From Thiogranum sp. (GTDB lineage Bacteria; Pseudomonadota; Gammaproteobacteria; DSM-19610), in assembly GCA_030148775.1 (NCBI GenBank), contig JASBST010000015.1, forward strand, positions 1 to 64,000: a DNA stretch of 64,000 nucleotides, read 5' to 3'. Made by a program: the position numbers and the translations under genes. The notes under the pieces are model-generated. The model searched no databases, was not told the origin of the DNA, and saw only the letters and a program-made list of their open reading frames with translations. Shown here piece after piece: positions 12,726-33,324 of this stretch. The first letter of the stretch is position 1; each line of letters begins with the position of its first letter.

Positions 12726-12734
12726 ACATTTGAT
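12726..12734 (-). promoter_or_regulatory. Conserved ATCAAATGT box A (DsrC-like/encapsulin operon)
   Basis: Minus-strand TTATCAAATGTGAATG, ending 66 bases before the DsrC-like start. The 14 bases from ATCAAA are identical to those before hsp20, and three more units share the nine-base core. The binding factor is unknown. Confidence 0.55.
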
Positions 12735-12824
12735 AACGGCCGACGCCCCGCTGCGAGCCGGCATCGCGCCGACGGCCGGAGCGTGGGCTCCGCAGTGCGA
12801 CGATCCCGGACCGAACACAAATGG

Positions 12825-13247
12825 TCAGCGCAACAGTTTATTTTTCAGGGGTGGGAAGAATCTCAAGATAACGAAATTGACCCCCGCCAGCGCCACCGCC
12901 ACCTCATAACGCTGGAAGGCCACGGCCGCGCCGACAGCGCCAGTGTTCCAGATACTCGCCGCGGTCGCCGTGCCATGCACATTACCGCCATCCTTGAGGA
13001 TAGCGCCGCCGCCGATGAACCCGATCCCGGTCATGAGCCCGTAGAGCACCCGCGAGAGCGCCTCAGGACTGTCCTGCATCAGCGACTGCCCGAGCAGGAT
13101 GTAACCGCACGACGCGACCGACACCATCGGGAACGTCCGCAACCCGATACCGCGCGTTTCGCGTTCCCGGTCCCATCCGATAGGCAGCGCCAGCAAAAAC
13201 GCCAGCGCCAGCTCAGTGAGATTGGCCACGTCAACCAGGCCTTGCAA
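12825..13247 (-). CDS. MgtC/SapB-family membrane protein
   Basis: About 140 residues with several transmembrane segments and the family motifs GWDRERETRGIGLRTF and GIGFIGGGAILKDGGNVHGT. MgtC-type proteins aid survival at low magnesium or in acid and interact with membrane ATPases or transporters; the substrate here is unknown. It is the short form without the C-terminal cytoplasmic domain. The start is uncertain. A TTG at 13247 works, but AGGAGG lies five bases from an in-frame ATC at 13256, which would add three residues. Confidence 0.85.
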   Translation of the reverse strand: MQGLVDVANLTELALAFLLALPIGWDRERETRGIGLRTFPMVSVASCGYILLGQSLMQDSPEALSRVLYGLMTGIGFIGGGAILKDGGNVHGTATAASIWNTGAVGAAVAFQRYEVAVALAGVNFVILRFFPPLKNKLLR

Positions 13248-13340
13248 AGTCTCGATAAGCGCCTCCTGGATCAGGGTCAGGGAAACGACTTTTGTTCCCT
13301 GGCAACGGGCAAGGTTTGAAAATCCTTTCAGGCGGACAGC

Positions 13341-13481
13341 TTACATTTTGTCCTTGACGTGCTCCGAGGCGTCCTGGATTTCTTCGCCACCGCTTTCCAC
13401 GTCCTTGCCCAAGCCTTCCACGGTGTTACAACCCGCCAACAGCAGCGGAATCAGTAGTGTTGCCAATACATATGTCTTCAT
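13341..13481 (-). CDS. Entericidin-like small lipoprotein
   Basis: 46 residues. A short signal sequence ends in the lipobox LLLAGC, and the mature part NTVEGLGKDVESGGEEIQ is typical of entericidin A/B-type lipoproteins, which are often under stress or stationary-phase control. A second, longer relative lies at 21472-21651. Confidence 0.85.
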   Translation of the reverse strand: MKTYVLATLLIPLLLAGCNTVEGLGKDVESGGEEIQDASEHVKDKM

Positions 13482-14105
13482 GGAGTTTCACCCTCGATAG
13501 CGGGAATCGGCTCAGGCCGTGCGGAGCGCTTTCCCGGAAAGCCGTGTCGTAAGTTACCGGACCGACATTAAGGGTCCGACCGGGGCATGACTGTCAGCCG
13601 ATCCGGAACAGATTGTAGGGCATCGCCTTCATGCCGGTTTTCATCGCCACCTCCCGATATCGAGGCATCGCTGTTGTAACCCGCTCAACGAAAAAGCATT
13701 CTTTCCAGGTACCGGTATGCGATCAGAACCCGGCCGGCGATTGCAGAGGAATTGCGGGGAATTCAGGCACTTCCCATTTCCCTACAGCAGCAATGTCAGT
13801 TATCCGACAGAAGCGGATTTCGCGATACGGTTTACTACGCTCAACCGCAGAGGCGATACATCCGGTGGAACTTTGGAGGTTGGGTCTATATCACAGGAAT
13901 CTGCTCTCAAAAATTCAAGCGTTGTGATCTTGGTGCCTGCAGCACTGGAAATGTCCGCACGATGATTGCCGCTCCCTTAGGCCACTATATTTGGCCACAT
14001 AGCCAGCCTGGAATCTCCAAACCTCCCTCCTTCTCAGCTGGCTTTTTTATTTTCCGTTTGCTTGATAGGCTGTCGGTTTAACATAGGCAATCGCAGGAGA
14101 CTCTG
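13482..14105. other. 624-base region without a recognisable gene
   Basis: Overlapping short frames (for example 13752-14081) have no family resemblance and no good ribosome binding site. The region is more AT-rich than its neighbours and ends in a terminator-like hairpin. An untranslated RNA or a leader for the kinase gene are possibilities I cannot distinguish. Confidence 0.35.
14001..14048 (+). terminator. Terminator-like hairpin upstream of the first histidine kinase
   Basis: AGCCAGC at 14001-14007 pairs with GCTGGCT at 14037-14043, followed by a T-run and TATTTT. The loop is long (29 bases). It ends about 55 bases before the kinase ATG, so it would terminate a transcript arising in the gene-free region to its left. 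Confidence 0.45.
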
Positions 14106-15506
14106 ATGGAGCAAGTTGTTCCTACCCGGGACATCGCTGCGGCACCTGCGGTCCCGGAGTGGTGGCCACACGTAATACTGGGCGTCGCCAGCGCACTGTT
14201 GCTGACTTTGCTGGTAGTCACTTTGTATTACGCCACCACGGCCCGCCGATTGCTGACCGACCTGCAGCAGTACGCCTGGCAGGTGGACAAGGTCGACGCA
14301 CTTCTGATCCAGCTGTTGAACGCGGAAACCGGCGCCAGGGGCTTTCTGGTCACCGCCGACAATGTCTACCTGGATCGTTACCGGGAGGGGATTTCCAGAC
14401 TGGGTGCGCTGCTGAGCGATATCGACAGCCATCCGGAAAAACCACCGCTGAACGTCGACGAGTACGGCAAACTGAAACGATTGATCGACGCCGAAATCAA
14501 GGCGCTGTCCTCGGCGATCGACGCCAGACAGGCCGGAGCCCGTCTGCCCGACAAGCTGATCGAGCACGGCAACCGGATGATGGACGCGATACGCGACAGT
14601 CTCAATCGCATCCGCTCGCAGCTTTCCCAGGACAATGCCACCTACTATGTGACTTCGCTGGGTTTTCTCGGCAAGTCGCGCTGGGTAGTGGTGTCGCTCT
14701 TCACTGCAGCCTTTCTGCTCCTGTTGAGCCTGTTTCTCCTGCTGCAAAAACAGATCGGCCTGCGTCATCGCATCGCCTCGATGATGAGCGATGAGAATGA
14801 GCGGCTGGAAAAACTGGTCAAACAGCGGACCACCGAACTCAACGATCTGGCCAGCTATCTCACCCGCCTGAGCGAAACGGAGAAACGCCGTATCGCCCAG
14901 GAGTTACACGACGAGATGGGGGCGCTGCTGACCGCCGCCCGAATGGACACGACCTGGATTATGCGGGACCTCGACCCCCGGCTGAGCGAGAAATACGCCC
15001 GCCGCCTGAGCCGGCTGTCCGAATCGCTGGACGCCGCCATCAGCCTGAAGCGCAAAATCACTTCCGACCTCAAACCGCCTTTGTTGCAGGAATTGGGCTT
15101 GATCGAATCGGTCAGTGTCATGGTGCAGGACCTCGCCAACGACGGCTCCCATCAGGTTCGAATGGAGCTGCCGAAGAGTCTTCCGCCGATAGACAGTGAA
15201 CGTACGCTCGCCGTCTTCCGGATCATCCAGGAATCCCTGACCAACATCCGCAAATATGCACAGGCACGACATATTGAGGTAGGCGTCAGCCTCGAGGACC
15301 AGGACATCCATATCCGTATCGCCGACGACGGCCAAGGCTTCGACAGCGACAGGCAGCGCAGCGCCGGCAACGGGATACCGGGCATGCGCCACCGCGCCCA
15401 GATGTTCGGCGGCGGTCTGACGGTCACTTCCTCGCCCGGCCAGGGGACCTTGATAGAAGCCTATATTCCGATCCAGGGACGGGCGGAGCGTCGGCAGGCT
15501 CAGTGA
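14106..15506 (+). CDS. CHASE3-type NarL-family sensor histidine kinase (first copy)
   Basis: 466 residues. A transmembrane segment at about 22-43 is followed by a periplasmic CHASE3-like domain with NAETGARGFLVT, a second segment at about 190-212, and a coiled coil. The HisKA_3 dimerisation domain has phosphoacceptor His268 in RRIAQELHDEMGALL, and the HATPase domain has NIRKYAQA and DDGQGFD. It should autophosphorylate and pass phosphate to a NarL/FixJ-type regulator. Its 3' end overlaps by seven bases the convergent receiver gene, beyond which lies a LuxR-type regulator. The 19016-20431 kinase is a paralogue with the same order of domains. Ligand unknown. Confidence 0.92.
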   Translation: MEQVVPTRDIAAAPAVPEWWPHVILGVASALLLTLLVVTLYYATTARRLLTDLQQYAWQVDKVDALLIQLLNAETGARGFLVTADNVYLDRYREGISRLGALLSDIDSHPEKPPLNVDEYGKLKRLIDAEIKALSSAIDARQAGARLPDKLIEHGNRMMDAIRDSLNRIRSQLSQDNATYYVTSLGFLGKSRWVVVSLFTAAFLLLLSLFLLLQKQIGLRHRIASMMSDENERLEKLVKQRTTELNDLASYLTRLSETEKRRIAQELHDEMGALLTAARMDTTWIMRDLDPRLSEKYARRLSRLSESLDAAISLKRKITSDLKPPLLQELGLIESVSVMVQDLANDGSHQVRMELPKSLPPIDSERTLAVFRIIQESLTNIRKYAQARHIEVGVSLEDQDIHIRIADDGQGFDSDRQRSAGNGIPGMRHRAQMFGGGLTVTSSPGQGTLIEAYIPIQGRAERRQAQ

Positions 15507-15928
15507 TTGATGATGTCGCGCTCGTTCTGGATAAAGTCAATCAAGTCGTCGAGCTGGTAGGATTTGTCGAAAAATCCGTCGACACCCAGATCCTCGCATC
15601 GCCGACGCAATACGCTGGAACCATGGTTGGTAAAAATTACGGTTTTGGGATTGCCATAACGCTCGCGATCATTGCTCAGCGCGGTCAATACTCCGATCCC
15701 ACTGCCGGCCTTCAGTTCGAGATCGATAATAACCAGATGAGGTTGCTTCGTCTCCATGCTGTGCAGGCCGCCCGACTGGTCTTCCGCTTCACCAACCACG
15801 GAAACATCGTCCACGCTCGACAGGACATCCACCAGCATTTCTCTCAACAGCATGGAATCTTCGATAATGACGACGTCGAACACAGGCATCGTTCGGCTGA
15901 TCTCGGCGTTGCTATACCCGCTTTGCAT
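15500..15928 (-). CDS. Stand-alone response-regulator receiver domain
   Basis: 142 residues containing only a receiver domain: acidic pair in VVIIEDSMLL, phosphoacceptor Asp in HLVIIDLELKAG and the conserved Lys in GFFDKSY. There is no output domain, so it probably works by protein contact or as a phosphate sink, as CheY or Spo0F do. It lies 17 bases behind the LuxR-type regulator gene and converges on the kinase gene. The ATG at 15928 is preferred; a GTG two codons upstream is possible. Confidence 0.85.
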   Translation of the reverse strand: MQSGYSNAEISRTMPVFDVVIIEDSMLLREMLVDVLSSVDDVSVVGEAEDQSGGLHSMETKQPHLVIIDLELKAGSGIGVLTALSNDRERYGNPKTVIFTNHGSSVLRRRCEDLGVDGFFDKSYQLDDLIDFIQNERDIINH

Positions 15929-15945
15929 GATCACCCACCACGCGT

Positions 15946-16599
15946 CTACGCCAAACCGTGGCGGACGGCATAAGCCGCCAATTCAGCGTTACTATTCAAC
16001 CCCATTTTCTCCATGAGGCGAGAGCGGTAGGTGCTTATGGTTTTGGTACTCAGGTGCAGCGTATCGGCGATGGTCGAAACGTTCGCACCTTGCGCCAGAC
16101 GCAGAAACACCTGAAGCTCACGTTCGGACAACTGCTGATGGGGTTGGGCATCCTGTTCGCCCGCAACCTCCCTGGCCAGCAGCTCCGCGGTCTTGGGGGA
16201 AATATAGCGCTGACCGCGCGCCACACTGCGAATGGCCGAAATCAAGTCCTCTTTTTCACAGTCCTTGCACAGGTAGCCGTCGGCGCCGTTTCGAATCATC
16301 GGCAGGGCATAACGATCTTCGGGATAACCACTGAGTATCAAAACCCCGATATTGTCGTAGCGCTGGCGTATGGCACGCAGGATATCGACACCGCTCTCTT
16401 CCGGCAGTGAAATATCCAGCAGCACCAGATCGCACTGATCGTTCCGCAACGCTTCCATCAACGCGGTACCCGAGGACGTATCGAGGGTCACCTCGAATCC
16501 GGGTTCATCCGCCAACAACTCGCGGAAACCGCGACGAACAATTTCGTGATCGTCGACGATGGCGATTCGTACCGGGCTGTAAATACTAGATGGTTTCAT
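15946..16599 (-). CDS. NarL/FixJ-family response regulator (first copy)
   Basis: 217 residues: receiver domain with phosphoacceptor Asp62 (LVLLDISLPE) and C-terminal LuxR-type HTH (LSERELQVFLRLAQGANVST ... STKTISTYRSRL). The switch lysine sits in C111-K-D-C114, a CxxC around a conserved functional residue. The same motif occurs in the paralogue at 20438-21079. It presumably pairs with the kinase at 14106. Targets unknown. Confidence 0.93.
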   Translation of the reverse strand: MKPSSIYSPVRIAIVDDHEIVRRGFRELLADEPGFEVTLDTSSGTALMEALRNDQCDLVLLDISLPEESGVDILRAIRQRYDNIGVLILSGYPEDRYALPMIRNGADGYLCKDCEKEDLISAIRSVARGQRYISPKTAELLAREVAGEQDAQPHQQLSERELQVFLRLAQGANVSTIADTLHLSTKTISTYRSRLMEKMGLNSNAELAAYAVRHGLA

Positions 16600-16955
16600 G
16601 GACGAGAATTTTCGCAGTTATAGTCAGCGGTGACGGCCGGGCGCAACGCTTTCGCGCTTGCCTGTACCCCCCCAATCCCAAAGACGGATCCGGTCGCAAT
16701 CCGTCTCTGACGCTAGCTATTCTAGATCTGTTTACCTCGCTTACGCCAGTCTTCCCGGTAGGATGTCTCTTATTTAGATGTCGTCTCTGTCCTACATTCC
16801 CGTGCGCCGCGGAGATTCATGCCCAATCCGTCGCGTCGAAAACTAACTGCTTGTTTCTCATGGCTGAACGAGCAACAGACTCGGGCCCTATGTGGCACGG
16901 GAATGCCCGGCCAGGCGCCGACCGCCCGGCCTGACTGCTCCCGTGCCCCGGGCGG
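16600..16955. other. Intergenic region upstream of the response regulator
   Basis: About 355 bases between two minus-strand genes. It should hold the promoter of the response regulator. I see no gene, clear terminator or repeat. Confidence 0.35.
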
Positions 16956-17480: not shown

Positions 17481-17538
17481 AGTCGATTCCTCTAGTCGTC
17501 ATTATTCAGTTTGTGTCCGGCGAAACGTCGGTTGCAAT

Positions 17539-17974: not shown

Positions 17975-18018
17975 GATGTTCTCCGTGTATAAACCTGACA
18001 GGCATTTAAATCGGTTGA

Positions 18019-19015: not shown

Positions 19016-20431
19016 ATGACGCGACATTCCCCTCCCCCTCCCAGCGAAGACTGCGAACCGGCCGCGGAAGCGGGGTCCAAAAACCATGTCATTCTGGCGC
19101 TGGCGTCCCTGGTCATCCTCGCCATATTCATCGCCTGGTTCTACCAGTCCAATGCCACACGGGACGCGCTCGCGCGACTGGAAGAGCATGCCGCAAGGAC
19201 CGAACATCTCGACCGTCTGTTGATCAGTCTGCTCAAATCGGAGACCGGCGTGCGCGGCTTTCTGGTTTCAGGCGACAACGAATATCTGCAACCTTATAGC
19301 GAGGCGATCGATCAACTGGACAGAAACCTGGCACTCGTCATGCGTGGCGTCGGCCACGTCGGCAAGGCGGAGGAAACTGAACAGTTACGGCGCGCGATCC
19401 GCCAATACGAAATACTGGCGCGGGATCTGATCCAGGACAAGAAAAAGGGGGGCAGCGCCAACCTGCTGGATCTTTACCGCGGCAACAATTCTCTGGAATA
19501 CCTGAAAAGCACGATCGCGCAGCTGAAACAGCGACTGACCGAGGAAAGCCAGGCTTTCTATCAGCGTACCGCCCGCAGCCAATATGTGACGCGCTGGGCC
19601 GTATTCGGCCTTTGCCTGGCCGCGCTGTTTCTGGTGCTGTGGCTATTCTGGTCACTGCAGCGGCAGGCGCGTTTGCGCCGGGAGCTGGCGCTAGCCCTGC
19701 ACCGGCGCGCTTCGGATCTGGAATCCGAGGTGAGAAATCGCACTGCGGAACTCACGTCGCTCGCCGCGCAACTGACGCGTGTCAGCGAGGAGGAAAAGAT
19801 GAACCTGGCGCGCGAACTGCACGACGATCTGGGGGCCTCGCTGACCGCCGCGAAGATGGACGCGGCCTGGCTGCGGGCGCGCTGTGAGTTATTGCCGGAA
19901 GACCAGGCGTGTACGAAGACGCAACGTCTTATCCGCTCGCTGGATCACGCGATCGGGATGAAACGCCGGCTTACCAGCAATCTCATGCCGCCGCTGCTCA
20001 GGGACCTCGGCCTGTTCGACGCCCTCGAAGGCCTGGCCGACGATCTGCGCGCCGACGGCAACATCCAGGTCGCCCTCAGACTGCCGCGCCAGCAACCCGA
20101 ACTGGAGGCTTCCGTGGCACTGGCCCTGTTCCGGATAACGCAGGAGGCGATTACCAATGTGCGCAAATATGCCCGCGCTGATCGACTAAGCATCTCGATA
20201 TCCACTGAAGACAATCGGCTAAAATTGAGTATTGAAGACGACGGGACCGGATTCGATCCCGGGCACACAGAAGAGAAGAGTTTCGGCATCATCAGCATGC
20301 GCCATCGCTGCCAATTGATCGGCGGGGAGTTCGAACTCCACAGCGCGCCGGGCCGGGGGACCCGCATCGTCGTCGCCCTGGGTCTGCCGACCGAGCCCCG
20401 GGACGGCCATCCGTCCGAGGCCCCGGGCTGA
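19016..20431 (+). CDS. CHASE3-type NarL-family sensor histidine kinase (second copy)
   Basis: 471 residues with the same architecture as the kinase at 14106: transmembrane segment at about 25-45, CHASE3-like domain (KSETGVRGFLVSGDNEYLQP), second segment near 200, HisKA_3 domain with His269 in NLARELHDDLGASLTAAKMD, and an HATPase domain with TNVRKYARA and DDGTGFD. Strong similarity across the kinase core suggests a duplication, with sensor domains more diverged. It converges on its likely partner regulator, leaving six bases between the stops. Confidence 0.92.
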   Translation: MTRHSPPPPSEDCEPAAEAGSKNHVILALASLVILAIFIAWFYQSNATRDALARLEEHAARTEHLDRLLISLLKSETGVRGFLVSGDNEYLQPYSEAIDQLDRNLALVMRGVGHVGKAEETEQLRRAIRQYEILARDLIQDKKKGGSANLLDLYRGNNSLEYLKSTIAQLKQRLTEESQAFYQRTARSQYVTRWAVFGLCLAALFLVLWLFWSLQRQARLRRELALALHRRASDLESEVRNRTAELTSLAAQLTRVSEEEKMNLARELHDDLGASLTAAKMDAAWLRARCELLPEDQACTKTQRLIRSLDHAIGMKRRLTSNLMPPLLRDLGLFDALEGLADDLRADGNIQVALRLPRQQPELEASVALALFRITQEAITNVRKYARADRLSISISTEDNRLKLSIEDDGTGFDPGHTEEKSFGIISMRHRCQLIGGEFELHSAPGRGTRIVVALGLPTEPRDGHPSEAPG

Positions 20432-20437: not shown

Positions 20438-21079
20438 TCAGGTGTCGATCAGTCCGTTGCGTACCGCATAGGTGGCCAGCTCCGCGTTACTGGAGACGCC
20501 GATTTTGTCGAGAAGACGGCTGCGATAGGTACTGATGGTCTTGACACTGAGATTCAGATTGCGCGCGATCTGGGTGACACTGTCACCGTGAGCCAGGCGG
20601 GTAAATACCTGCAGTTCCCGCTCGGAGAGCAGGTGGTGTGGCTGCTTGCCGGCCCCGCCCGCCACCTCTTCGGCCAGTATGTGGGCCGCTTTGGTGGAAA
20701 GATAACGCCGGCCCCGCGCTACGGTACGAATCGCCTTCACCAAATTCTTGCCGTCACAGTCCTTGCAAAGATAGCCGTGCGCGCCATGGCGGATCAACGC
20801 GGAGGCGTAACGGTCCTCTGGATAACTGCTCAGCATCAGCACGCGCATGTCGGGGTGACACTGACGCACCTGTTGCAGAATATCGATGCCGCTCTTACCG
20901 GGCAGCGATATGTCGAGCAGCAACACGTCGCAATCCGCATCTTTCAGATTCTCCAGCGCCTCTTCGCCGCTGGCGGCTTCAAATACGACTTGAACAGCCC
21001 CTTCCGCGTGACTCTCGAGCATTTCGCGAAAACCGGCCCGTACGATACTGTGATCGTCGACTATTCCTACGCGCGTCAT
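20438..21079 (-). CDS. NarL/FixJ-family response regulator (second copy)
   Basis: 213 residues from MTRVGIVDDHSIV: receiver domain with Asp56 (VLLLDISLP) and LuxR-type HTH (LSERELQVFTRLAHGDSVTQ ... SVKTISTYRSRLLDKIG). Very similar to the regulator at 15946, including the C105-K-D-C108 motif around the switch lysine. An upstream ATG at 21154, overlapping the preceding gene, would add 25 residues. I prefer 21079 because it gives the paralogue's length and has GGGAG upstream. Likely partner of the facing kinase. Confidence 0.9.
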   Translation of the reverse strand: MTRVGIVDDHSIVRAGFREMLESHAEGAVQVVFEAASGEEALENLKDADCDVLLLDISLPGKSGIDILQQVRQCHPDMRVLMLSSYPEDRYASALIRHGAHGYLCKDCDGKNLVKAIRTVARGRRYLSTKAAHILAEEVAGGAGKQPHHLLSERELQVFTRLAHGDSVTQIARNLNLSVKTISTYRSRLLDKIGVSSNAELATYAVRNGLIDT

Positions 21080-21146
21080 CCCTGTGGTTTCTCCCGCCGG
21101 ATACGAACGGCGCACCTTGTGTCCCGCCGTGTCGGGTGTAGGTAGG

Positions 21147-21365
21147 CTACTCATATCGATTACCCGTTCCACGCACCAGACCCGCCAGGGCCGGCACAAT
21201 TGATAAAACAAATAACAATTTGGCATGCCCCGCCGTTTGCGAGGCGGCGCCGCCAGCACCCAATGCCAGTGCCAGTGCGGCGACCAAAAACAATGCCGTA
21301 AGATAAGCGGGCGTATAACGCGCTTCCCGCGGCCTGGTCATTATATCGTGTGTTAAAGGTTTCAT
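21147..21365 (-). CDS. Small two-segment membrane protein upstream of the response regulator
   Basis: 72 residues from the ATG at 21365, preceded by GGAG. Two hydrophobic stretches (AYLTALFLVAALALALGAGG and LLFVLSIVPALAGLVRG) suggest a helical hairpin in the inner membrane. Its stop overlaps the alternative regulator start, so the genes are probably cotranscribed. No family recognised. Confidence 0.6.
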   Translation of the reverse strand: MKPLTHDIMTRPREARYTPAYLTALFLVAALALALGAGGAASQTAGHAKLLFVLSIVPALAGLVRGTGNRYE

Positions 21366-21471
21366 TCGATTCTCCAGACGCTCGCAATCCCCTTGCTCAA
21401 AGACCGCGACGGTCAACTATCGGGATCATCCGACCCACGCCACCGAAACCGGCGACGTGGTCGAGCCTTGC

Positions 21472-21651
21472 TCACTGATTGACTTCATCCTGAATCTTGT
21501 CGCCCGCGTTCTCGATTTTCTCTCCGCTCTTGTCAATGGCGTTGTCCACGTTCTCGCCGGCCTCCTCGGCCGGCCCGTCGTTGGTGTCGCAACCGGCGAG
21601 CATCAGCATACTGGCGAGCCCTGCCGCCACTAACAGATTATTGAAAGTCAT
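21472..21651 (-). CDS. Small entericidin-like lipoprotein
   Basis: 59 residues. The signal sequence ends in SMLMLAGC (lipobox), followed by a strongly acidic mature part with repeated DN/EN-A-G/D-K units (EEAGENVDNAIDKSGEKIEN). Likely lipidated and envelope-located; function unknown. Confidence 0.8.
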   Translation of the reverse strand: MTFNNLLVAAGLASMLMLAGCDTNDGPAEEAGENVDNAIDKSGEKIENAGDKIQDEVNQ

Positions 21652-21935
21652 GATTTTTCTCTCCCTAGGATGAAATAACTTACGGAAGAGCAATTTACCC
21701 TCGCGGGTCCGCCATGACTGTCGGAGGGACCGGATTAGCATGCAGGACGATTCCTACATCCGCAACCTGTCCGAAAAACGTTAGACACATCCTACACAAA
21801 GGTCAGCAGCGGCTGATCCTTTGCGCCCTGGCTAGCCTCCTACACTCTTACTGTGCCCATAGGCCGCCCCTGCAGCACCGAGCGTCCGGCCAAATAGTTT
21901 AACAAAACTTTTTTACCTATACGGAGAGTACAGTT

Positions 21936-22685
21936 ATGAATGTGAGCTCAATGACAGACAGGCAGCGTCAAACGTTACGCTGCCGCAGCGCGAGCCACCT
22001 GCACCTGCTGGGCAGCCGTACACAGCACGCGCGCAGCGCTGAGGCCAACGAAATCCTTATCAACGAGGGATCGATGCCGTCACGGGTTCTGCTGATCGAC
22101 AACGGCTGGGCGATCCGTTACAAGACGCTGGCCGACGGCAGACGGCAGATCCTGGACTTTCTCCTGCCCGGAGACATGGTGGGAATGTTTGCGATTCTTT
22201 TCGATCAGACGGAATACGGCGTGCAGGCACTGACTCCGTTGACGGTCCGCAGCATCGACGCCAAACACGTCATCGCCGAGCTCAACCGGTCGCAACAGTT
22301 CGCCATAACCCTGAACTGGCTGGCCGGCAGCGTAGAGCAGCGCATGGACGAACATCTGATGCGGGTGGGCCGACGCAGCGCCGAGGAACGAATGGCGCAT
22401 CTGTTTGTAGAGCTGCACCGTCGGTTGAAACGCAGCGGCCTGCAGGATACCGCCGCACGCCGCCTGCCGATTACCCAGAAGACCATTGCCGATCATCTGG
22501 GCATGAGCCATGTGCACGCCAATCGCACCTTCCGTTCGCTGGTGCGTCAGGGAACCGTATCGCTCAGCGACGGCGAGATCCTGCTGCTCGACCCGTGCGA
22601 ACTGGTCCGGCTGGCCGGCTTCGAGGAAAGTTACCTTTGCCATACACCGGCGTGCGTCAGCGAACAGAGCTACTCCTGCGCATGA
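21936..22685 (+). CDS. Crp/Fnr-family transcriptional regulator
   Basis: 249 residues: N-terminal cyclic-nucleotide-binding-like barrel (VLLIDNGWAIRYKTLADGRR ... FLLPGDMVGMFAILFD) and C-terminal Crp-type HTH (LPITQKTIADHLGMSHVHAN). The four N-terminal cysteines of Fnr are absent, so an oxygen-labile cluster of that type is unlikely. The cAMP-contact residues of Crp are not evident. The C-terminal tail carries three Cys (SYLCHTPACVSEQSYSC). It is followed 47 bases later by a DsrC-like gene and may control it. Confidence 0.9.
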   Translation: MNVSSMTDRQRQTLRCRSASHLHLLGSRTQHARSAEANEILINEGSMPSRVLLIDNGWAIRYKTLADGRRQILDFLLPGDMVGMFAILFDQTEYGVQALTPLTVRSIDAKHVIAELNRSQQFAITLNWLAGSVEQRMDEHLMRVGRRSAEERMAHLFVELHRRLKRSGLQDTAARRLPITQKTIADHLGMSHVHANRTFRSLVRQGTVSLSDGEILLLDPCELVRLAGFEESYLCHTPACVSEQSYSCA

Positions 22686-22732
22686 ACGCCCAGGCCCCTT
22701 GCATCGAATTTGTCATAAGAGGAAAAATACCC

Positions 22733-23143
22733 ATGAGTAGCGAAAACGAACAAATCCGTCGCGGTTTCGAAGAGGCTTACCGCGAAGCGGGTGACGTCAG
22801 CGTCGAGACCGACATCGACGCGCAGCAGCGGTCGCGACGACAGCGCGAATTGGACACCTGGAATCTCGACAAGGCGCGCGCAACCGCGGCCGAGGAAGGC
22901 ATCGAACTCAACAACGCCCACCTTCAGGTCATTCACTGCCTGCGTAATCATTACCTGGAACACGGCTTGGCGGAACACGGACGCGAATTGGGCGACATGC
23001 TTGACGAACGCTTCGCCAACGCCGGCGGTCGCAAGTATTTGCGGCGACTGTTCCCGGAGGGGCCTGTCGCGCAGGGACTGAAACTAGCCGGACTGCCCGT
23101 TCCGGGTGACACCGAAGATGCGGGATTCGGCACAGCGCGCTGA
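22733..23143 (+). CDS. Second DsrC-family-like protein without catalytic cysteines
   Basis: 136 residues. After a charged N-terminal extension of about 35 residues the DsrC pattern appears: LDTWNLDKARATAAEEGIEL, NAHLQVIHCLRNHYLEHG, a middle helix and KLAGLPVPGD near the end. Neither the Cys before the (R/K)(I/L)AGLP motif nor the C-terminal Cys is present, as in the protein at 12321. It sits directly downstream of the Crp/Fnr gene. A regulatory role is inference. Confidence 0.78.
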   Translation: MSSENEQIRRGFEEAYREAGDVSVETDIDAQQRSRRQRELDTWNLDKARATAAEEGIELNNAHLQVIHCLRNHYLEHGLAEHGRELGDMLDERFANAGGRKYLRRLFPEGPVAQGLKLAGLPVPGDTEDAGFGTAR

Positions 23144-23160
23144 ATACGCTAAAGATTGTT

Positions 23161-23169
23161 ATCAAATGT
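23161..23169 (+). promoter_or_regulatory. Conserved ATCAAATGT box B (upstream of hsp20)
   Basis: TTATCAAATGTGAATG, identical over 16 bases to box A before the encapsulin operon. It ends 99 bases before the likely hsp20 start and begins 18 bases after the DsrC-like stop. Confidence 0.55.
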
Positions 23170-23268
23170 GAATGCTTCCGGCGGCCGCTGATGGCACCCT
23201 GGTTTGCGCTTGGCAAACCCGTGGAATCGCCGGAGAATGCAGATGCTTGAGTTGGATATCCAGCCTGG

Positions 23269-23721
23269 ATGCACGCCGTGAGCTGCGCAGGCTGGAACCC
23301 ATTGCAGGAGATGGAAGAACTGCTGGACCGTTACCACAGAGCGACCGGACGAAGCGTCGTCAACTGCGCGGACGATTACCTGAACTCAGACTGGCTTCCG
23401 CACACCGACCTTGAGGAAACCCCCAGCACCGTTGTGGTGCGCGCGGAGCTGCCCGGCGTACGCAAGCGGGACATCGTGGTCAACATCAGTCGCGGCATGC
23501 TGGAAATCAGCGGTGAGAAACACGCCGAACTGAAGCAGGCCCAGGGTAATCGCAAGCACATCGGTGAGTGCCAGTTCGGTTGTTTTCGACGTACGCTGTC
23601 GCTGCCGCAGGAATTGGAGGTCTCGGCGGCGAATGCCACCTACAGCGACGGCGTTTTGATCATACAAATACCAAAATTATCCGGGAGCGCCGACTATGAA
23701 CACCGTATCCAGATTGACTGA
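23269..23721 (+). CDS. Hsp20/alpha-crystallin-family small heat-shock protein
   Basis: About 150 residues. A short N-terminal arm (WNPLQEMEELLDRY) precedes an alpha-crystallin domain: PSTVVVRAELPGVRKRDIVV, ISRGMLEISGEKHAE, GECQFGCFRRTLSLPQEL and DGVLIIQIPKL. Small heat-shock proteins hold unfolding proteins in a refoldable state. The start is uncertain because no strong ribosome binding site precedes 23269. A conserved ATCAAATGT box lies upstream, fitting stress control. Confidence 0.88.
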   Translation: MHAVSCAGWNPLQEMEELLDRYHRATGRSVVNCADDYLNSDWLPHTDLEETPSTVVVRAELPGVRKRDIVVNISRGMLEISGEKHAELKQAQGNRKHIGECQFGCFRRTLSLPQELEVSAANATYSDGVLIIQIPKLSGSADYEHRIQID

Positions 23722-24019: not shown

Positions 24020-25381
24020 GTGACAATGCGACGCTCGTTCAGACTGATTTGGGACCGGTTGCAAACCACGATCTGGTTCATCCCCACGCTGCTGGCGCTC
24101 GGCGGGGTCGCCGCCGCCCTGGCGCTGATAGACGTCGACCTGCAGATCGATCCGGACGGCCGCTCCTGGATGACCGTTTTTCAGATCGGCGCCACCGGCG
24201 TGCGCCAGGTGCTGGCGGTGACCACCGGCGCCATGATGACCATCACCGGCGTGGTATTTTCCATTTCCGTAGTGACGCTGACGCTGGCAGCCAATCAGTT
24301 CGGCGCGAAAATATTGCGCAACTATCTGAGCGACTCACGCAACAAAGTGGTGTTGGGCTTGTTTGTCGGCAGCTTTCTCTACGGACTGGTGGTGCTGGCC
24401 TCGATAGATTCGGAAACCGACAGCAGTATTCCCGCGCTGGCGTTCATGGTCAGCCTGTTGTTGACTGTGGCGGCGATCGCCGCGCTGATTTACTTCATCA
24501 ACAATATTTCGACGTCCATACAGGCCGATATCGTCATCGCGGAGATCGGCAAAAGCCTCGGCGCCACCGTGGATCAGAACCTGCTGCCCGGCGGACCCGA
24601 TCTGGAGGAGGCTGAGATTCGCAGCCGATGGGAAATCGCCGTGCGCGGAGACCACCGCAGCCCCGTGGTCGCGTCCAAAAGTGGCTACGTGGAATATATC
24701 GATTACACGAGCCTGCTCGACCACAGCCGTCGCAGCGGTGATCACATTGAAATCCACGCGCGCGCCGGAGACTTTATTGTCAAGGGGAATCCACTGGCGA
24801 CGATTCACAGCGCCGGGAATAAGGACACGGACACCGCCATCGAGCATCACTTCTCCCTGGGCACTCAGCGCACCAACGTCCAGGATCTGGAATACGCCAT
24901 CATGCAGCTGCTGCAGATCGCCCAAAGAGCGCTGTCACCCGGCGTCAACGACTCCCTCACGGCCATCGCCTGTATCGACTGGTTCTGCGCAGCCCTGGCG
25001 CAGATGTCGGCCGGACGTTTTCGGCCCGGCTACCAGACCGACAAGGACGGTCAGGTACGCCTGAAACTGCATCCGTTCGACTTCGCCGGCGCGGTCAATG
25101 CCGTTTTCAATCCGCTGCGGCAGAATTCCCGCGACAACGAAATGGTCACCATCCGTCTACTGGACGGCATCGCGTCCATCATGCGCGTCGCCACGCAAGC
25201 GGACTATCTGCAGCTGTTGTTCAGACACGCCGGGCTCATCTACCGGCACGTCGGCAAGGCGTTTCCGGACGATCCCGATGTGGAGGACATTGCCGCGCGC
25301 TACAGAAGTTGCGAATCGCTGTTCCGGGAACGCCTTCAGGTGGTACGCGCCGGTCGGCGTCCAGAGCATGCCGGCAGTTGA
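24020..25381 (+). CDS. DUF2254 membrane protein
   Basis: 453 residues. Four hydrophobic segments lie in the first 170 residues (FIPTLLALGGVAAALALI, GAMMTITGVVFSISVVTLTL, VVLGLFVGSFLYGLVVLA, LLLTVAAIAALIYFINNI). A large soluble C-terminal part contains the conserved SPGVNDSLTAIACID. This is the DUF2254 pattern; function is not established. The next gene carries its own ATCAAATGT box right after this stop. Confidence 0.85.
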   Translation: MTMRRSFRLIWDRLQTTIWFIPTLLALGGVAAALALIDVDLQIDPDGRSWMTVFQIGATGVRQVLAVTTGAMMTITGVVFSISVVTLTLAANQFGAKILRNYLSDSRNKVVLGLFVGSFLYGLVVLASIDSETDSSIPALAFMVSLLLTVAAIAALIYFINNISTSIQADIVIAEIGKSLGATVDQNLLPGGPDLEEAEIRSRWEIAVRGDHRSPVVASKSGYVEYIDYTSLLDHSRRSGDHIEIHARAGDFIVKGNPLATIHSAGNKDTDTAIEHHFSLGTQRTNVQDLEYAIMQLLQIAQRALSPGVNDSLTAIACIDWFCAALAQMSAGRFRPGYQTDKDGQVRLKLHPFDFAGAVNAVFNPLRQNSRDNEMVTIRLLDGIASIMRVATQADYLQLLFRHAGLIYRHVGKAFPDDPDVEDIAARYRSCESLFRERLQVVRAGRRPEHAGS

Positions 25382-25382
25382 T

Positions 25383-25391
25383 ATCAAATGT
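25383..25391 (+). promoter_or_regulatory. Conserved ATCAAATGT box C (upstream of phospholipase D-VTT gene)
   Basis: The nine-base core begins two bases after the DUF2254 stop and ends 62 bases before the phospholipase start. Bases after the core (TAACC) differ from the other copies. TTGATATCAA overlaps it as a short palindrome. Confidence 0.5.
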
Positions 25392-25453
25392 TAACCTGGA
25401 CGCAAGTGGATACCGATAAGCTATTGTTATCTTTCGGATCAAGGTTCTAGAGC

Positions 25454-27619
25454 ATGCCAGTCCAGGGACAGACTACGCAGTTACTTAAACCCGGTCACAA
25501 TTGCTGGGCCCTGGCCCGGGCCGAGCGGCTGGCGTTTCTGATAGACGGCGAGGCATACTTCCGCGCTTTCCATCAGGCGGTGAGAAAGGCGCGCCATTCG
25601 GTGTTCATCCTCGGCTGGGACATCGACACCCGTTTGCGCCTGCTCCGCGAGCCATTTGCCGAAGACGGTGTGCCGAACCGGCTGGGCGAAGTGCTACATC
25701 TGGCGCTGAAACAAAACCGCAAGCTGCATATCCATATTCTGGTCTGGGACTGGGCCATGCTCTATGCCGGCGAGCGCCAGTGGATGCCGCTGTACAGTAT
25801 TTGATGGCGTAAACACAAGCGTCTGCATTTCCATCTCGACGACGAATGCCCTTTCGGCGCATCCCAACACCAAAAGATCGTGGTGATTGACGACAAGCTG
25901 GCGTTCATCGGTGGCTTCGATCTGTCCAAGGACCGCTGGGACACCTGCGAGCACAAACCCGACGACCGGCGACGCATCAACACCGACGGCAAACCCTACC
26001 GGCCGTTTCACGACCTGCAGGCGGCCGTCTGCGGCGAGGCGGCGGGAAAGCTCGGCGAACTCGCGCGCCAGCGCTGGACAATGGTGACCGGCAAGACCGC
26101 CCCGCCGCCGGCCGCCGATGCGCCAACCCCCTGGCCGGACTGTATCGGCGCGCACCTCGGCGACGTGCAGGTGGCCTTTTCCCGGACCGTACCGGAGATC
26201 GATCAGCAGCCCGGCGTTCGGGAAATCGAAAAGGTCCTGATAGACGCCATCGCCAGTGCCCGGCAGAGCATCTATATTGAAAACGAATACCTGACGTCGA
26301 AAAGCATCGGCGATGCCCTGTTGCAGGCGATCGGGAAAGCGGACGCGCCGGAGATCATTCTGGTCCTGCCGGAAAAGACCGGAAACTGGTTGGAGCAGAA
26401 CACCATGGACGTGTTGCGCTGGCGACTGTTATGCCGCTTACGCGAGGCCGACCATCACAAGCGGCTGTATATCTGTTATCCCGAGCACAGGGCGCTTGGC
26501 GACGAGTACATCTCGCTTCACTCCAAGCTGCTCATCGCCGACGACCATTTTCTGACGCTGGGTTCGGCCAACCTCAGCAACCGCTCCATGGGTTTCGACA
26601 CCGAGTGCAACCTGGTAGTGGAAGGCCACGACGCGGCGACCCGGTGCGCCATCCTGGACTTGCGCAACCGCCTGTTGGGCGAGCACCTGGGCACGGATGC
26701 CGAGAGCGTCGCGCGCGAGACAGCGGAGCATCAGTCGCTGATGGCCTATATCGAACAGTTTCGCGGTCGCGAACGCGCACTCGAGCCCTTGGACGGCAGC
26801 GTGCCCGAATTCATAGAAAACCTGTTACCCCACCAGCGGATCATCGATCCCGAAAGCCCCGTTGACGCGGAAGAGATGGCAGACATGATGCTACCCCCGG
26901 AAGAACGCAAATCCACGCTGCGGCAGCTGGCCCCGGCGCTCATCACACTGGTGCTGCTCGCCGCTCTCGCCGCCGCCTGGCGCTGGACTCCGCTCAGCGA
27001 GTGGCTGGACACGGAAAGCCTGCAGGCCCTGATGACCCAGGTGAACCAGTACCCCTTCGCATTGATCGCGGTGCCCAGCGCCTACGTGGTGGCCGGACTG
27101 TTGTCGGTCCCTCTGACCCTTTTGGTGATTGTGACCGTCATCGTCTTCGGTGCCTGGCAGGGATTTTTGTTCGGCCTGGGCGGGGCGCTGCTCAGCGCGG
27201 TCGTCAACTTCGCCCTCGGCCGCTGGCTGGCGGGCGATCTGGTGCGCCGCGTCGCCGGCAGGCGCCTGAACACGCTGAGCGAGAAACTGGCCAAGCGGGG
27301 CATTATTACCATTGTCACGTTGCGCCTGGTGCCGATCGCGCCGTATGGCGTGATCAACCTGGTGGCCGGCGCCTCGCGCGTCCGCCTCAGGGACTTCATC
27401 ATCGGCAGCCTGATCGGACTGTCGCCCGGCCTGCTGGCCATTTCGATTTTCTCCGACCAGGTTATCGAGACTATTCGCAAACCGGACCTGGGCGCATTTG
27501 CCGTGCTCGCGGCGGTCGCCGGCGCACTGGCTGTCGGCGGCTGGATGTTGTATCGCTGGGCACAGAAACGGGACGACAATGACTCCAATGACAAAGTGAT
27601 GCCGCCCGGACAGTCCTGA
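25454..27619 (+). pseudogene. Phospholipase D/cardiolipin synthase-like protein fused to a VTT domain, interrupted by TGA
   Basis: Nominal 721 residues. Two HxKxxxxD active-site motifs are present: HQKIVVIDD at about 140 and HSKLLIADD at about 356. After a linker comes a membrane domain (about 500-700) with the VTT/DedA signature (FGAWQGFLFGLGGALLSAVV ... RGIITIVTLRLVPIAPYGVI). Such enzymes exchange or hydrolyse phospholipid head groups. A TGA at 25802-25804 (codon 117, PLYSI-stop-WRKHKRLHF) splits the frame ahead of both motifs, with homology resuming at the next codon. It could be a sequencing error, readthrough or a recent null mutation. The ATCAAATGT box and an intact second part argue that the gene was recently functional. 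Confidence 0.82.
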
Positions 27620-28980: not shown

Positions 28981-28982
28981 TC

Positions 28983-29678: not shown

Positions 29679-29694
29679 GGTTTAAAGTGAAATT

Positions 29695-29703
29695 ATCAAA
29701 TGT
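29695..29703 (+). promoter_or_regulatory. Conserved ATCAAATGT box D (upstream of arylsulfotransferase cluster)
   Basis: TTATCAAATGTAAGTG, starting 17 bases after the preceding stop and ending 56 bases before the arylsulfotransferase ATG. Same orientation as boxes B, C and E. Confidence 0.5.
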
Positions 29704-29759
29704 AAGTGCTGACCGCCGTGCTTCCTGCCACGCTGAGTTAAAAGCATGGTGGCGGTTTT

Positions 29760-31142
29760 ATGCGTGAGCCGGACTCGGGGAATTTTCAACTGGCGTTGTT
29801 TATCGGCGCATTGTTGTTTATCGCGTTCATTGTCGGCGCCTTGCTCACAGTAGCGAAAGTATTCCCCTACTCCTATGTGAAAGACGCCTATCGCGCCGGC
29901 ACCGCGCTCTACGAGAAACTGACCGGCTACACCGATCCGCTGACGACCGATCTCTGGGCCAAGGCAAAAACCCCGGCCAAAGGCGTCACCATCCATGACC
30001 CGACCCGGGCCATGGATGGCTACACCCTTTACACGTCGGGCGATGCCCCCAAGGCCACCCTGATCTCCATGGACGGACAGGTCGTCTACACCTGGGAACG
30101 TCCTTATAGCAGTATCTGGGATGAAACGGCCGCCGCCCGCGACCCGGTTCCCGACAGTCAAACCTATTTCCGTAGAGCCGAGCTGATGCCGAACGGCGAT
30201 CTGCTGGCGATTTATATCGGCGTCGGCGACAGTCCCTATGGTTATGGCATGGTCAAGCTGGACAAGAAATCAAAGCCGATCTGGAAGAATCTCGATCACT
30301 TCCACCACGATTTCGACGTGGGCGACGACGGTCACATCTACGGTCTCACCCACGCCTACCGCACAGCGCCGATAGCCGGCGCCGACCAGTTCGAACCGCC
30401 GTTTCTGGACGACTACCTGACGGTGGTCGACGCCGACGACGGCCGGACCCTGAAAAAGATCTCGATACTCGACGCCATCGCCCGCTCGCCCTATCGACGT
30501 CTGCTCTGGCGTGTCCACTATTACAGTCTCGAGGATCCGTTGCACACCAACGCCGTGGATTTTCTCGACGCCGGACGGGCCAGGGCGCTCGCCCGCAAGC
30601 TGCCGCAGGCGGCACGGGGACAGGTGTTGTTGTCTTTTCGCGAACTCGCCGGCGGCAGTGTCGCCTTACTGGATGTCGATAAAGAAGAGATCGTCTGGGT
30701 TTCACGCGGCCCCTGGATCGCTCAGCACGATCCCGACATCCTGCCCGACGGCGATCTGCTGGTATTCGACAACCTGGGACACTTCGGCCCCGGTGGTACG
30801 TCGCGGGTCATCGAAGTGGATCCCGCGACGGGTGGAATCACCTGGAGCTACACCGGCACCGGACAGCAACCGCTGGAGAGCAGCATCCGCTCGGCCCAGC
30901 AGCGGCTTGCCAACGGCAACACGCTGATCACCGAATCCAACGGCGGCAGACTGCTCGAAGTCACCGGGCAGGGCGACATCGTCTGGGAATACATCAACCC
31001 GGTAAGAGCGGGCAAGGACAAGAAGAAAATTCCCATAGTCAGTTGGGCCCAGCGCATCGATCCCGCCAACATCCATGGTCTCCCGCTGGCCGACAGCGCA
31101 CCGCCCACATCCGAAACCAAACCTGAACGGAGTCAGCAATGA
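29760..31142 (+). CDS. Membrane-anchored arylsulfotransferase (ASST)-family protein
   Basis: 460 residues. One N-terminal transmembrane segment (about 10-32) is followed by an extracytoplasmic beta-propeller-like region: GYTLYTSGDAPKATLISMDG, AELMPNGDLLAIY, HHDFDVGDDGHIYGLTHAYR, HTNAVDFLD, AQHDPDILPDGDLLVFDNLG and RLANGNTLITESNGGRLLEV. The family transfers sulfate between phenolic compounds through a catalytic His; some members may not be sulfotransferases. The next gene starts inside its stop codon. Confidence 0.8.
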   Translation: MREPDSGNFQLALFIGALLFIAFIVGALLTVAKVFPYSYVKDAYRAGTALYEKLTGYTDPLTTDLWAKAKTPAKGVTIHDPTRAMDGYTLYTSGDAPKATLISMDGQVVYTWERPYSSIWDETAAARDPVPDSQTYFRRAELMPNGDLLAIYIGVGDSPYGYGMVKLDKKSKPIWKNLDHFHHDFDVGDDGHIYGLTHAYRTAPIAGADQFEPPFLDDYLTVVDADDGRTLKKISILDAIARSPYRRLLWRVHYYSLEDPLHTNAVDFLDAGRARALARKLPQAARGQVLLSFRELAGGSVALLDVDKEEIVWVSRGPWIAQHDPDILPDGDLLVFDNLGHFGPGGTSRVIEVDPATGGITWSYTGTGQQPLESSIRSAQQRLANGNTLITESNGGRLLEVTGQGDIVWEYINPVRAGKDKKKIPIVSWAQRIDPANIHGLPLADSAPPTSETKPERSQQ

Positions 31143-31402
31143 TCAAACACATCGGTAGTCTAGTTCTGATACTGCTCGGCATCTCGACCAGCCAGGCGGC
31201 GCTCGCCTACGTCGGTCCGGGATCCGGACTGAGTCTGCTGGGCGCACTCTGGGGGCTGCTCGCGGCGCTCGGCGCGGCGCTGCTATTCATCATACTGTGG
31301 CCCCTGCGCCGCTATCGCAAACGACGGAAAATGCAACAGGCCGCTCACGCCGACCGGGGCGGGTCGTCGCCTACCGCCGGCAACGCGGAACGCAAACCCT
31401 GA
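31139..31402 (+). CDS. Small membrane protein coupled to the arylsulfotransferase
   Basis: 87 residues. The ATGA overlap with the preceding stop indicates translational coupling. A signal-like segment (SLVLILLGISTSQAALA) is followed by YVGPGSGLSLLGALWGLLAA, a hydrophobic helix and a basic, disordered tail (RRYRKRRKMQQ). Likely an inner-membrane accessory protein; function unknown. Confidence 0.65.
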   Translation: MIKHIGSLVLILLGISTSQAALAYVGPGSGLSLLGALWGLLAALGAALLFIILWPLRRYRKRRKMQQAAHADRGGSSPTAGNAERKP

Positions 31403-31424
31403 GCCGGCGAAACCGGCGTTCGCC

Positions 31425-32174
31425 GTGAAAATGGGGATTTTCGATCTGCCGGCGCCATTGTTCGCCTGGGTCGACACGCTGGAAGCACCGCTGCTGCCGC
31501 CGCTGGGGCGGCTGGTGGTCTGGGGCATATTGGGCGCGCTGTTGTCGATGAGCCTGTACCGGTTTCTGTCCCCGCAGCAACGCATCGCGCGCGGCAAACG
31601 CGAGATCGTCGAATCCCGACAACGTCTGTACGCCTGCGACGGCGAATTCGCCGACGCCTGGCCGCTTATGCGGAACATGCTGGCCGTGGCCCTGCGCCAG
31701 GTGGGCCGCATCACCCTGCCGGCCGTGGTCGCGTCTGTGCCGTTGATATCGCTGCTGACCTGGCTGAGCACCCACTATGGCTATGCCTATCCGCCACCGG
31801 GCGAAGCGCCGCGGATCGAGGTTGTTCCCCCGGCCTTGCAGGCCGAATGGGTCGGGAAGCCGCGGCCGGAGCAACCCGCCGCACCCTCTGCGCCCCATAT
31901 CGTGGTGACCGACGCCGACAAAAAAATGCTGACGACAGTTGCGCTCAACGCGCCGGTGCCGACACTGCATAAACAACAATGGTGGAATCTTTTCCTAGGT
32001 AATCCCGCCGGCTATCTTCCCGACGACACACCGGTACAGCGCATCAATGTGGACCTTCCGGAGAAGGAATTCCTGCATTTCGGGCCGAACTGGATTCGCG
32101 GCTGGGAATTCAGTTTCTTCGTCTCTCTCCTGATCGTCTCCATTGCAATGAAAGTGCTGATCCGTATCGAGTAG
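31425..32174 (+). CDS. Hypothetical membrane protein in the sulfotransferase cluster
   Basis: 249 residues. Three hydrophobic segments are seen: LGRLVVWGILGALLSMSLY, ITLPAVVASVPLISLLTWL and the C-terminal FSFFVSLLIVSIAMKVLI. An extracytoplasmic loop between the last two carries charged and Pro-rich sequence. The early part (KREIVESRQRLYACDGEFAD) faintly recalls EMC3/Oxa1-like insertases, but the match is too weak to assign. Context suggests work with the flanking sulfotransferase genes. Confidence 0.6.
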   Translation: MKMGIFDLPAPLFAWVDTLEAPLLPPLGRLVVWGILGALLSMSLYRFLSPQQRIARGKREIVESRQRLYACDGEFADAWPLMRNMLAVALRQVGRITLPAVVASVPLISLLTWLSTHYGYAYPPPGEAPRIEVVPPALQAEWVGKPRPEQPAAPSAPHIVVTDADKKMLTTVALNAPVPTLHKQQWWNLFLGNPAGYLPDDTPVQRINVDLPEKEFLHFGPNWIRGWEFSFFVSLLIVSIAMKVLIRIE

Positions 32175-32193
32175 TGAAACAGACGGCTGCACT

Positions 32194-33324
32194 GTGAGCA
32201 CCTCCGAACAAGACAACATTTTCCGGGTCGATCCCTGGACCCATTTTCTCGGCGGCCTGGTGGCGCGTGCTCCCGCGCTCTTTCAGCGGCTGGGTTCGTT
32301 CGAATCCCGTCTGTTGACCGACAGACTGGCCGACATCCCGATCCGCCAGCCCATTTTCATCGCCGGCCTGGCCCGTTCCGGGACGACGCTGTTACTGGAA
32401 ATCCTCGACAAGCATCCGGACACGGCCAGTCACCGCTACCGGGACTTCCCCATGCTGCATATCCCCTATTTCTGGAACCGCTTTCTCGCCTTCACGCCAC
32501 GGGCCGAGGAGAAGCCGGCCGAACGGGCCCATCAGGACGGCATTATGGTCACGGCGGACAGTCCCGAGGCCTTCGAGGAAGTGCTGTGGATGAGCTATTT
32601 CCCCGATCTGCATGATATCGCCAAGTGTTCGATCCTGGACACCGGGACGACGCACCCCCAATTCGAGCGCTTCTACCGCGACCACATTCGCAAATTAATG
32701 CTGGTACGGGGCGGAAAACGCTATCTGTCAAAGGGCAACTATAATATCACCCGGCTCGATTACCTGCTGCGTCTGTTTCCGGACGCGCGCATTCTGATCC
32801 CGGTGCGCGACCCTGTCTGGCACATCGCCTCACTACGCAAACAGCATCGGTTGTTCTGCCGCGGGCAGGAAAACAACCCGCGCGCCGTCCGCCACCTGCA
32901 ACGGGTCGGACATTTCGAATTCGGCCGCGACCGACGCCCGATCAATACCGGCGACAGCGACGAAACCCAAGCCATCGCCGAACTCTGGCGACAGGGCGAT
33001 GAAGTCGAGGGCTGGGCCCGTTACTGGGACCACGTCTACCGTTTCCTCGCCTGCCGCCTGCAGCAAAACGACGCGCTCCGCCAGGCGGCCAGCATCGTGT
33101 CCTACGAAACGTTGTGTCAACAACCCATGGATGTCCTGCGCGGGATTTTTTCCCATTCCGGGCTTCAGGTTTCCGATGTCATGCTGGAGCGCGCCGCGAC
33201 GCGGATCCATGCGCCCGGCTACTATGCACCGGACTTTTCCTCGCGGGAACTGGCTTGCATCGAGCGTCATACGGGTCCCACATGGGCGCGTCTTCAGGCG
33301 TTAGGCAACCATCATCAAATGTAA
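32194..33324 (+). CDS. PAPS-dependent sulfotransferase-family protein
   Basis: 376 residues with a GTG start 19 bases after the previous stop. The phosphosulfate-binding loop is clear (PIFIAGLARSGTTLLLEILD), followed by a core with LFPDARILIPVRDPVWHIAS as the 3'-phosphate-binding strand. It should move sulfate from PAPS to a hydroxyl of a small molecule or sugar. The acceptor is unknown. The last codons overlap the ATCAAATGT box before sodB. Confidence 0.82.
   Translation: MSTSEQDNIFRVDPWTHFLGGLVARAPALFQRLGSFESRLLTDRLADIPIRQPIFIAGLARSGTTLLLEILDKHPDTASHRYRDFPMLHIPYFWNRFLAFTPRAEEKPAERAHQDGIMVTADSPEAFEEVLWMSYFPDLHDIAKCSILDTGTTHPQFERFYRDHIRKLMLVRGGKRYLSKGNYNITRLDYLLRLFPDARILIPVRDPVWHIASLRKQHRLFCRGQENNPRAVRHLQRVGHFEFGRDRRPINTGDSDETQAIAELWRQGDEVEGWARYWDHVYRFLACRLQQNDALRQAASIVSYETLCQQPMDVLRGIFSHSGLQVSDVMLERAATRIHAPGYYAPDFSSRELACIERHTGPTWARLQALGNHHQM
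33314..33322 (+). promoter_or_regulatory. Conserved ATCAAATGT box E (upstream of sodB)
   Basis: ATCAAATGTAAATG within the last codons of the sulfotransferase gene, ending 77 bases before the sodB ATG. It suggests that sodB is transcribed separately from the cluster. Confidence 0.5.

Follow-up and report, generated by a model that had tools for sequence, protein, structure and literature searches.

A conserved nine-base box in Thiogranum as a probable class II-type activator site, most likely of a Crp/Fnr-family protein, before stress- and sulfur-related genes

The first 64,000 nucleotides of contig JASBST010000015.1 (GenBank assembly GCA_030148775.1), hereafter the window, belong to a 3.1 Mb genome (G000; 111 contigs, 86.7% complete) taken as a Thiogranum species, and carry a repeated nine-base word, ATCAAATGT, that is very probably a real regulatory switch standing before about eight stress- or sulfur-related genes. 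Our verdict is that this box is real and conserved, reads as an activator site of the class II type and belongs to a new regulon of a known kind. Judged from sequence, it is probably bound by an activator of the Crp/Fnr family, the leading candidate being the product of the gene at 21936-22685 on the forward strand of the window. A preliminary description had reported five exact copies, and all five were found at those places and on those strands, against 0.33 expected and with none of 100 dinucleotide shuffles reaching five; the first two copies share the same 16 bases, as had also been observed. When one mismatch was allowed, the window held 12 matches where 8.9 would be expected, a count that was reached in 20 of 100 shuffles; because such matches are near the chance level, the signal resides in the exact word and its extension. 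Across the whole source genome, ATCAAATGT occurs 16 times (once for the reversed control) and the extended word TTATCAAATGT six times (never for the reversed control).

Two further genomes of the same genus, G012 and G013, carry the box at orthologous places. In G012 it stands at the same eight promoters as in the source genome: those of the dsrC-like, hsp20, phospholipase D, arylsulfotransferase and sodB genes, of a cytochrome-like gene on contig C37 (cyt, whose product has two CxxCH motifs by eye) and of a gene of the metallo-beta-lactamase fold (assigned by Pfam), together with a site on contig C109 that adjoins a gene for an extracytoplasmic function (ECF) sigma factor. Seven of these eight are boxed in G013, where hsp20 carries ATCATATGT and where no match to the arylsulfotransferase was found in the stretches searched. 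Aligned, these promoters give 23 sites (eight promoters, two or three species each). Column 0 is here the first A of the box. When orthologs are compared pair by pair, the nine bases are the same in 196 of 198 cells and the -10 columns 34-39 in 94 of 132, compared with 145 of 352 for the spacer (columns 16-31), 246 of 572 for columns -30 to -5 and 261 of 660 for columns 40-69. Conserved boxes before stress genes in two to three species support the original suggestion of a regulator site for a stress regulon.

Conserved positions extend on both sides of the nine bases (columns 0-8), to T at -2 and -1, A at 10, T at 12, G at 13, C at 15, A at 35 and T at 39. The last two belong to a -10 element that the preliminary description had missed when it reported none in common: a hexamer xAnnnT lies at a fixed distance, 34 bases after the start of the box, in 15 of the 20 forward sites and within one base of that place in 19 of the 20, the three ECF-locus sites, which have no forward -10, being omitted from this count. 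Among all 23 sites, A35 is present in 17 and T39 in 16, and the best-offset -10 score was matched by none of 20,000 within-promoter column permutations. At the -35 place set by a 17-base spacer (columns 11-16) stands TG(A/C)C, with T12 in 17, G13 in 19 and C15 in 12 of the 23 sites. When the inferred -10 hexamer is placed at -12 to -7, the centre of the box (4.5) falls at -41.5, which is the usual position of a class II activator. Given a sigma70-like -35/-10 pair downstream and a centre near -41.5, the box is best interpreted as an activator site that borders directly on a weak sigma70-type -35, and not as the -35 region of an alternative sigma factor, which had been offered as the other option. 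Of the 23 promoters that E. coli FNR activates directly and whose start is known, 19 have their sites at -41.5 +/- 4 (PMC3688515).

Five of the boxed promoters lie in the window. On the minus strand, TTATCAAATGTGAATG at 12721-12736, conserved in G012 and G013, and a putative -10, AAGACT, at 12695-12700, found at the same place in three species, precede genes at 11083-12659 for a DsrC-like protein (ATG at 12659), an EncFtn-like encapsulated ferritin and an encapsulin shell (Pfam DsrC, EncFtn-like and Linocin_M18). The other four promoters are on the forward strand. The same TTATCAAATGTGAATG recurs at 23159-23174, conserved in G012 and with one base changed in G013, followed by a predicted -10, CACCCT, at 23195-23200 and by hsp20 (23269-23721; Pfam HSP20), the exact start of which is uncertain. 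Before the phospholipase D-VTT gene (25454-27619) stand ATATCAAATGTTAACC at 25381-25396 (ATCAAATGTTAA being conserved in G012 and G013) and a candidate -10, TAAGCT, at 25417-25422; in this assembly the reading frame of the gene is interrupted by a TGA at 25802-25804, a place that is open in G012 and G013. The arylsulfotransferase gene (29760-31142; Pfam Arylsulfotran_2) is preceded by TTATCAAATGTAAGTG at 29693-29708, conserved in G012, with CACGCT at 29729-29734 as its likely -10, and sodB, for an iron/manganese superoxide dismutase (33400-33990; Pfam Sod_Fe_N/Sod_Fe_C), by TCATCAAATGTAAATG at 33312-33327, the core of which is conserved in G012 and G013, with a presumptive -10, TAAAGT, at 33347-33352, one base closer than most. 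Distances of 56-99 bases from box to gene start, as first proposed, hold for the starts then assumed; by eye, G012 has a codon other than ATG at the place of the hsp20 start, 23269. The gene order in the window is crp, a second DsrC-like gene, box and hsp20, the second DsrC-like protein being encoded directly after crp, at 22595-23143.

The product of this crp gene, the proposed box-binding protein, has a cNMP-binding-like and an HTH_Crp_2 domain (Pfam cNMP_binding and HTH_Crp_2), both above the Pfam cut-offs, and its gene is present (E <= 1e-15) in 3 of 20 genomes of the order, exactly those that bear the regulon. A class-wide scan found homologues (E <= 1e-25) in 17 of 369 genomes, its own included, and the 20 crp loci other than its own were scanned with a matrix built from the forward sites. 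The nearest homologues, in the distant genomes G264 (45% identity) and G339 (41%), are the only two of the 20 with a recognition helix SHVHA(N/H)R, which reads GMSHVHANR in the window protein and SQVHANR in G012 and G013, and their loci scored highest (19.6 and 17.8), with sites that start 32 and 49 bases past the crp stop codon. At the third-best locus, L179, the score was 16.8 and the site lay within a broken homologue, while none of the remaining 17 exceeded 9.8; the highest score in 957 kb of other loci was 16.7, with no site at 17.5 or above. In G264 the site is an exact TTATCAAATGT in DNA of 66% GC, with CATACT at 35, before hsp20 and a dsrC-like gene, both of kinds present in the Thiogranum regulon; in G339 it is TTATCATTTGTTAATG, with TAAGCT at 34, and lies 117 bases before a 95-codon open frame of no assigned function. 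No match (E <= 1e-8) to the response regulators RR1-3 or the sensor kinases HK1-3, considered below, was found in the 39-40 kb around these two boxes, the rest of both genomes not having been searched. It is because of this class scan, in which boxes adjoin the nearest crp homologues and no response regulator or kinase is matched there, that we favour the Crp/Fnr protein. Compared with plasmids, the protein gave 487 records, all below 60% identity, and a PHROGs search returned no match.

Under this model a Crp/Fnr activator would bind (TT)ATCAAATGTnA at about -41.5, on promoters that would have a weak sigma70 -35 (xTG[A/C]C) and -10 (xAnnnT), and would contact RNA polymerase in the class II manner. 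A small stress regulon would thereby be switched on, comprising the encapsulated ferritin and DsrC-like proteins, Hsp20, phospholipase D-VTT, arylsulfotransferase, superoxide dismutase, the cytochrome-like protein and the metallo-hydrolase. What the sequences show directly is the box with its conservation and spacing, its co-occurrence with the regulator gene and its linkage to crp-type genes in two other families; we infer binding, the transcription starts, activation over repression, the nature of the inducing signal and a step above crp that involves kinase and response regulator.

The arrangement resembles that of FNR and FixK at class II promoters, where a Crp/Fnr-family protein occupies a 14-base site near -41.5 on sigma70 promoters, the FNR box being TTGATnnnnATCAA (PMC3688515). 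FixK2 (4i2o) is the best sequence match of the window protein among solved structures; its aligned recognition helix reads TLETVSR, unlike SHVHANR here, and the site core, TTATCA-AA-TGTnAA, also sets the box apart from FNR and FixK sites. The box looks like these Crp/Fnr sites, yet the system falls outside the FNR and FixK subfamilies, which would be marked by a TTGAT-N4-ATCAA site and E..SR recognition residues: site and helix both differ here, and the FNR/FixK matches in NCBIfam are all below cut-off. Almost the same pattern as our core is seen in the PrfA box, tTAACanntGTtAa, as given in PMC5359189, and PrfA too is a Crp/Fnr-family factor; the resemblance is one of site only, as the organism and regulon are unrelated and PrfA is not among the solved-structure or NCBIfam matches of the window protein. 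The (de)halobox of CprK, TTAAT-N4-ATTAA (PMC2610375), has the same length and outer TT...AA, and differs in its inner bases and its regulon. Two half-site readings of the box were rejected, one of FNR type with ATCAA as the right half-site and one of CRP type with TGTGA as the left half-site: in each, the columns for the partner half are not conserved. No such box was found in literature containing the string ATCAAATGT, as judged by some titles only.

Several observations weigh against the reading of the box as a Crp/Fnr activator site. Its dyad symmetry is modest, with 4 of 7 consensus pairs (reached by 19% of shuffles), and a centre at 5.5 scores nearly equally. The box at the ECF locus lacks a forward -10 and fits only in reverse. 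Eight of the 16 nine-mers in G000 lie outside conserved promoters, at least two of them inside long reading frames; random occurrence, including inside genes, had been named at the outset as a finding that would speak against the site, and this is so in part, the other eight copies being the conserved-promoter boxes. The eight outside copies have no preceding TT; of the three that fall among the weak matches listed, on contigs C53, C70 and C108, only the C70 word recurs among those listed for G012, within a reading frame. Regulator gene and site go together, in the distant G264 and G339 as well, and yet one TTATCAAATGT each is present in four genomes that lack the crp gene. The response regulators RR1 and RR2 show the same pattern of 3 in 20 (E <= 1e-50), and the three regulon-bearing species are relatives, not three independent events, for which reasons co-occurrence alone cannot separate Crp from RR1 and RR2. 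The G264 and G339 loci were chosen after the scan as the best scorers, and no clear box was found at the crp gene itself. When the extended box was sought across the class, in 369 genomes that did not include G012 and G013, six genomes besides G000 gave one match each; all six lie inside open frames of at least 70 codons, and we take them as chance.

Those two response regulators are the basis of an alternative that we consider unlikely, in which the local response regulators of GacA/NarL type (RR1, RR2 and perhaps RR3) occupy the box and could do so as a dimer at -41.5. RR1 (15946-16599, minus strand; Pfam Response_reg and GerE), which could be a rival candidate or an upstream regulator, has UvrY/SirA/GacA as its best NCBIfam match, below cut-off, and is encoded in the same island; RR2 (20438-21259, minus strand, start uncertain) is its paralogue, and CHASE3-HisKA_3 sensor kinases, by Pfam, are encoded on the forward strand at 14106-15506 (HK1) and 19016-20431 (HK2). 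Besides the occurrence of RR1 and RR2 in exactly the three regulon-bearing genomes, the alternative can draw on a recognition helix common to RR1-3, KT[IV]STYRSR, and on the HK1-RR1 genes being no more than about 4 kb away from the dsrC box in each of G000, G012 and G013. Response regulator presence follows the site within the genus; in G264 and G339, however, the boxes adjoin crp homologues in neighbourhoods of 39-40 kb where no response regulator was matched. Moreover, another motif, YCCTACA, is closer to a GacA-type half-site and is repeated before crp, before HK1 and in the RR1 intergenic region. Relatives of RR1 in named genomes comprised 58 loci, none above 38% identity except two Thiogranum records, and among these loci (L097-L154) the box pattern was found only in those two records and once in L117. 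A possible box of RR2, TTATCAATTGT at 21206-21196 (minus strand), was discarded, nothing within two mismatches being present at the matching place in G012 and G013. Of the local candidates put forward earlier, the Crp/Fnr protein fits better and the NarL-type regulators less well.

That the box instead serves an alternative sigma factor of ECF type as its -35 element, such as the factor encoded next to the C109 box, appears very improbable. The ECF gene has a box 102-212 bases upstream in three species, and a second ECF-like gene has, by eye, a nine-mer that overlaps its start. Against this, the sigma gene, which forms a pair with a putative anti-sigma gene (C109 of G000, 8271-9532; locus L047), has a different element of its own, GAATAAA...[CT]ATCT, just before its start codon, read by eye in all 10 genomes, including seven without the regulon; upstream of it a box was seen in the three regulon-bearing genomes and in none of the seven (for G019, in 53 upstream bases only), so that 7 of the 10 loci read have the ECF gene without a box. 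Homologues of the putative anti-sigma (no Pfam match) are found in 19 of 20 genomes of the order (E <= 0.001), and it was on this distribution and on the gene's own element that the ECF sigma was set aside as the box factor. Spacing also argues against it: the -10 lies about 20 bases from the end of the conserved box element, with the sigma70-like -35 at the element's edge, whereas the -35 to -10 spacing of ECF promoters is about 16-18 bases. It seems improbable, too, that the box is bound by some other regulator, or that it represses instead of activating. The candidates examined were genes near boxes, and box binding is a prediction; on the other side, in three families a crp-type gene is located at or close to a gene with a box, and the -41.5 position and weak core promoters are typical of activation.

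Read in reverse, the ECF-locus sites have AATG behind the box and then TAAGCT, TAAGCT and TAGGGT at 33 bases, which points to a 113-residue gene (L047:9830-10171) with no Pfam or NCBIfam match; the modest dyad symmetry makes this reading tentative. The C109 box at 6734 is flanked by divergent genes (6165-6653, minus strand, and 6808-7794, plus strand) and could serve both. A 162-residue protein of C109 and the hydrolase behind it, whose best NCBIfam match is SoxH-related and below cut-off, recur near the crp gene of G264.

The Crp/Fnr reading leaves a possible role for the response regulators one step above the box. FixLJ-FixK is a cascade in which a sensor kinase and a response regulator act on the Crp/Fnr-type FixK, and kinase and response-regulator genes likewise lie near crp here; by analogy, CHASE3 kinases would signal to the response regulators, these to crp, and Crp to the box. 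YCCTACA occurs 16 times in the window, seven of these between 11 and 34 kb, with [TC]CCTACA copies at 21752, 21790, 21838, 13780 and 16790 (plus strand) and at 13620 (minus strand). Upstream of crp, two copies stand at matching places in all three species, and upstream of HK1 one does so in the three; the RR1 intergenic region has one each, not clearly aligned. The GacA upstream activating sequence, TGTAAGCATTCTCTTACA (PMC4353343), does not match the box and resembles YCCTACA near the regulator genes, making [TC]CCTACA a possible site of GacA-like response regulators. A search of 700 bases ahead of the open frame in G264 and of the crp gene in G339 gave no copy of the motif (one CCTTACA in G339), which speaks against a general cascade. 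We therefore offer only as a conjecture, with a lesser chance of being right, the wider scheme in which an S(H/Q)VHA(N/H)R subgroup of Crp/Fnr proteins with its own site code, TTATCA-NN-TGTnAA, spans at least three gammaproteobacterial families and, under a FixLJ-FixK-like cascade in which response regulators drive crp via YCCTACA, couples CHASE3-kinase/GacA-like signalling to a regulon of iron-storage nanocompartment, DsrC-like sulfur carrier and superoxide defence.

A word spotted by eye has in this way become a testable promoter model, and a lineage of sulfur bacteria that is represented here only by draft and metagenome genomes gains a defined regulon, with one site, one likely regulator and about eight promoters, in which encapsulated ferritin and DsrC-like proteins are tied to heat-shock and superoxide genes. 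The pairing of helix and site could extend the recognition code of Crp/Fnr proteins. Two of the four genomes that hold a single TTATCAAATGT without crp, G001 (L056:6390) and G010 (L059:4618), also lack RR1 and have the word in a similar context. The intergenic regions between RR2 and crp (21077-21935) and between HK1 and dsrC (12737-14105) contain, by eye, two small minus-strand genes for entericidin-like lipoproteins.

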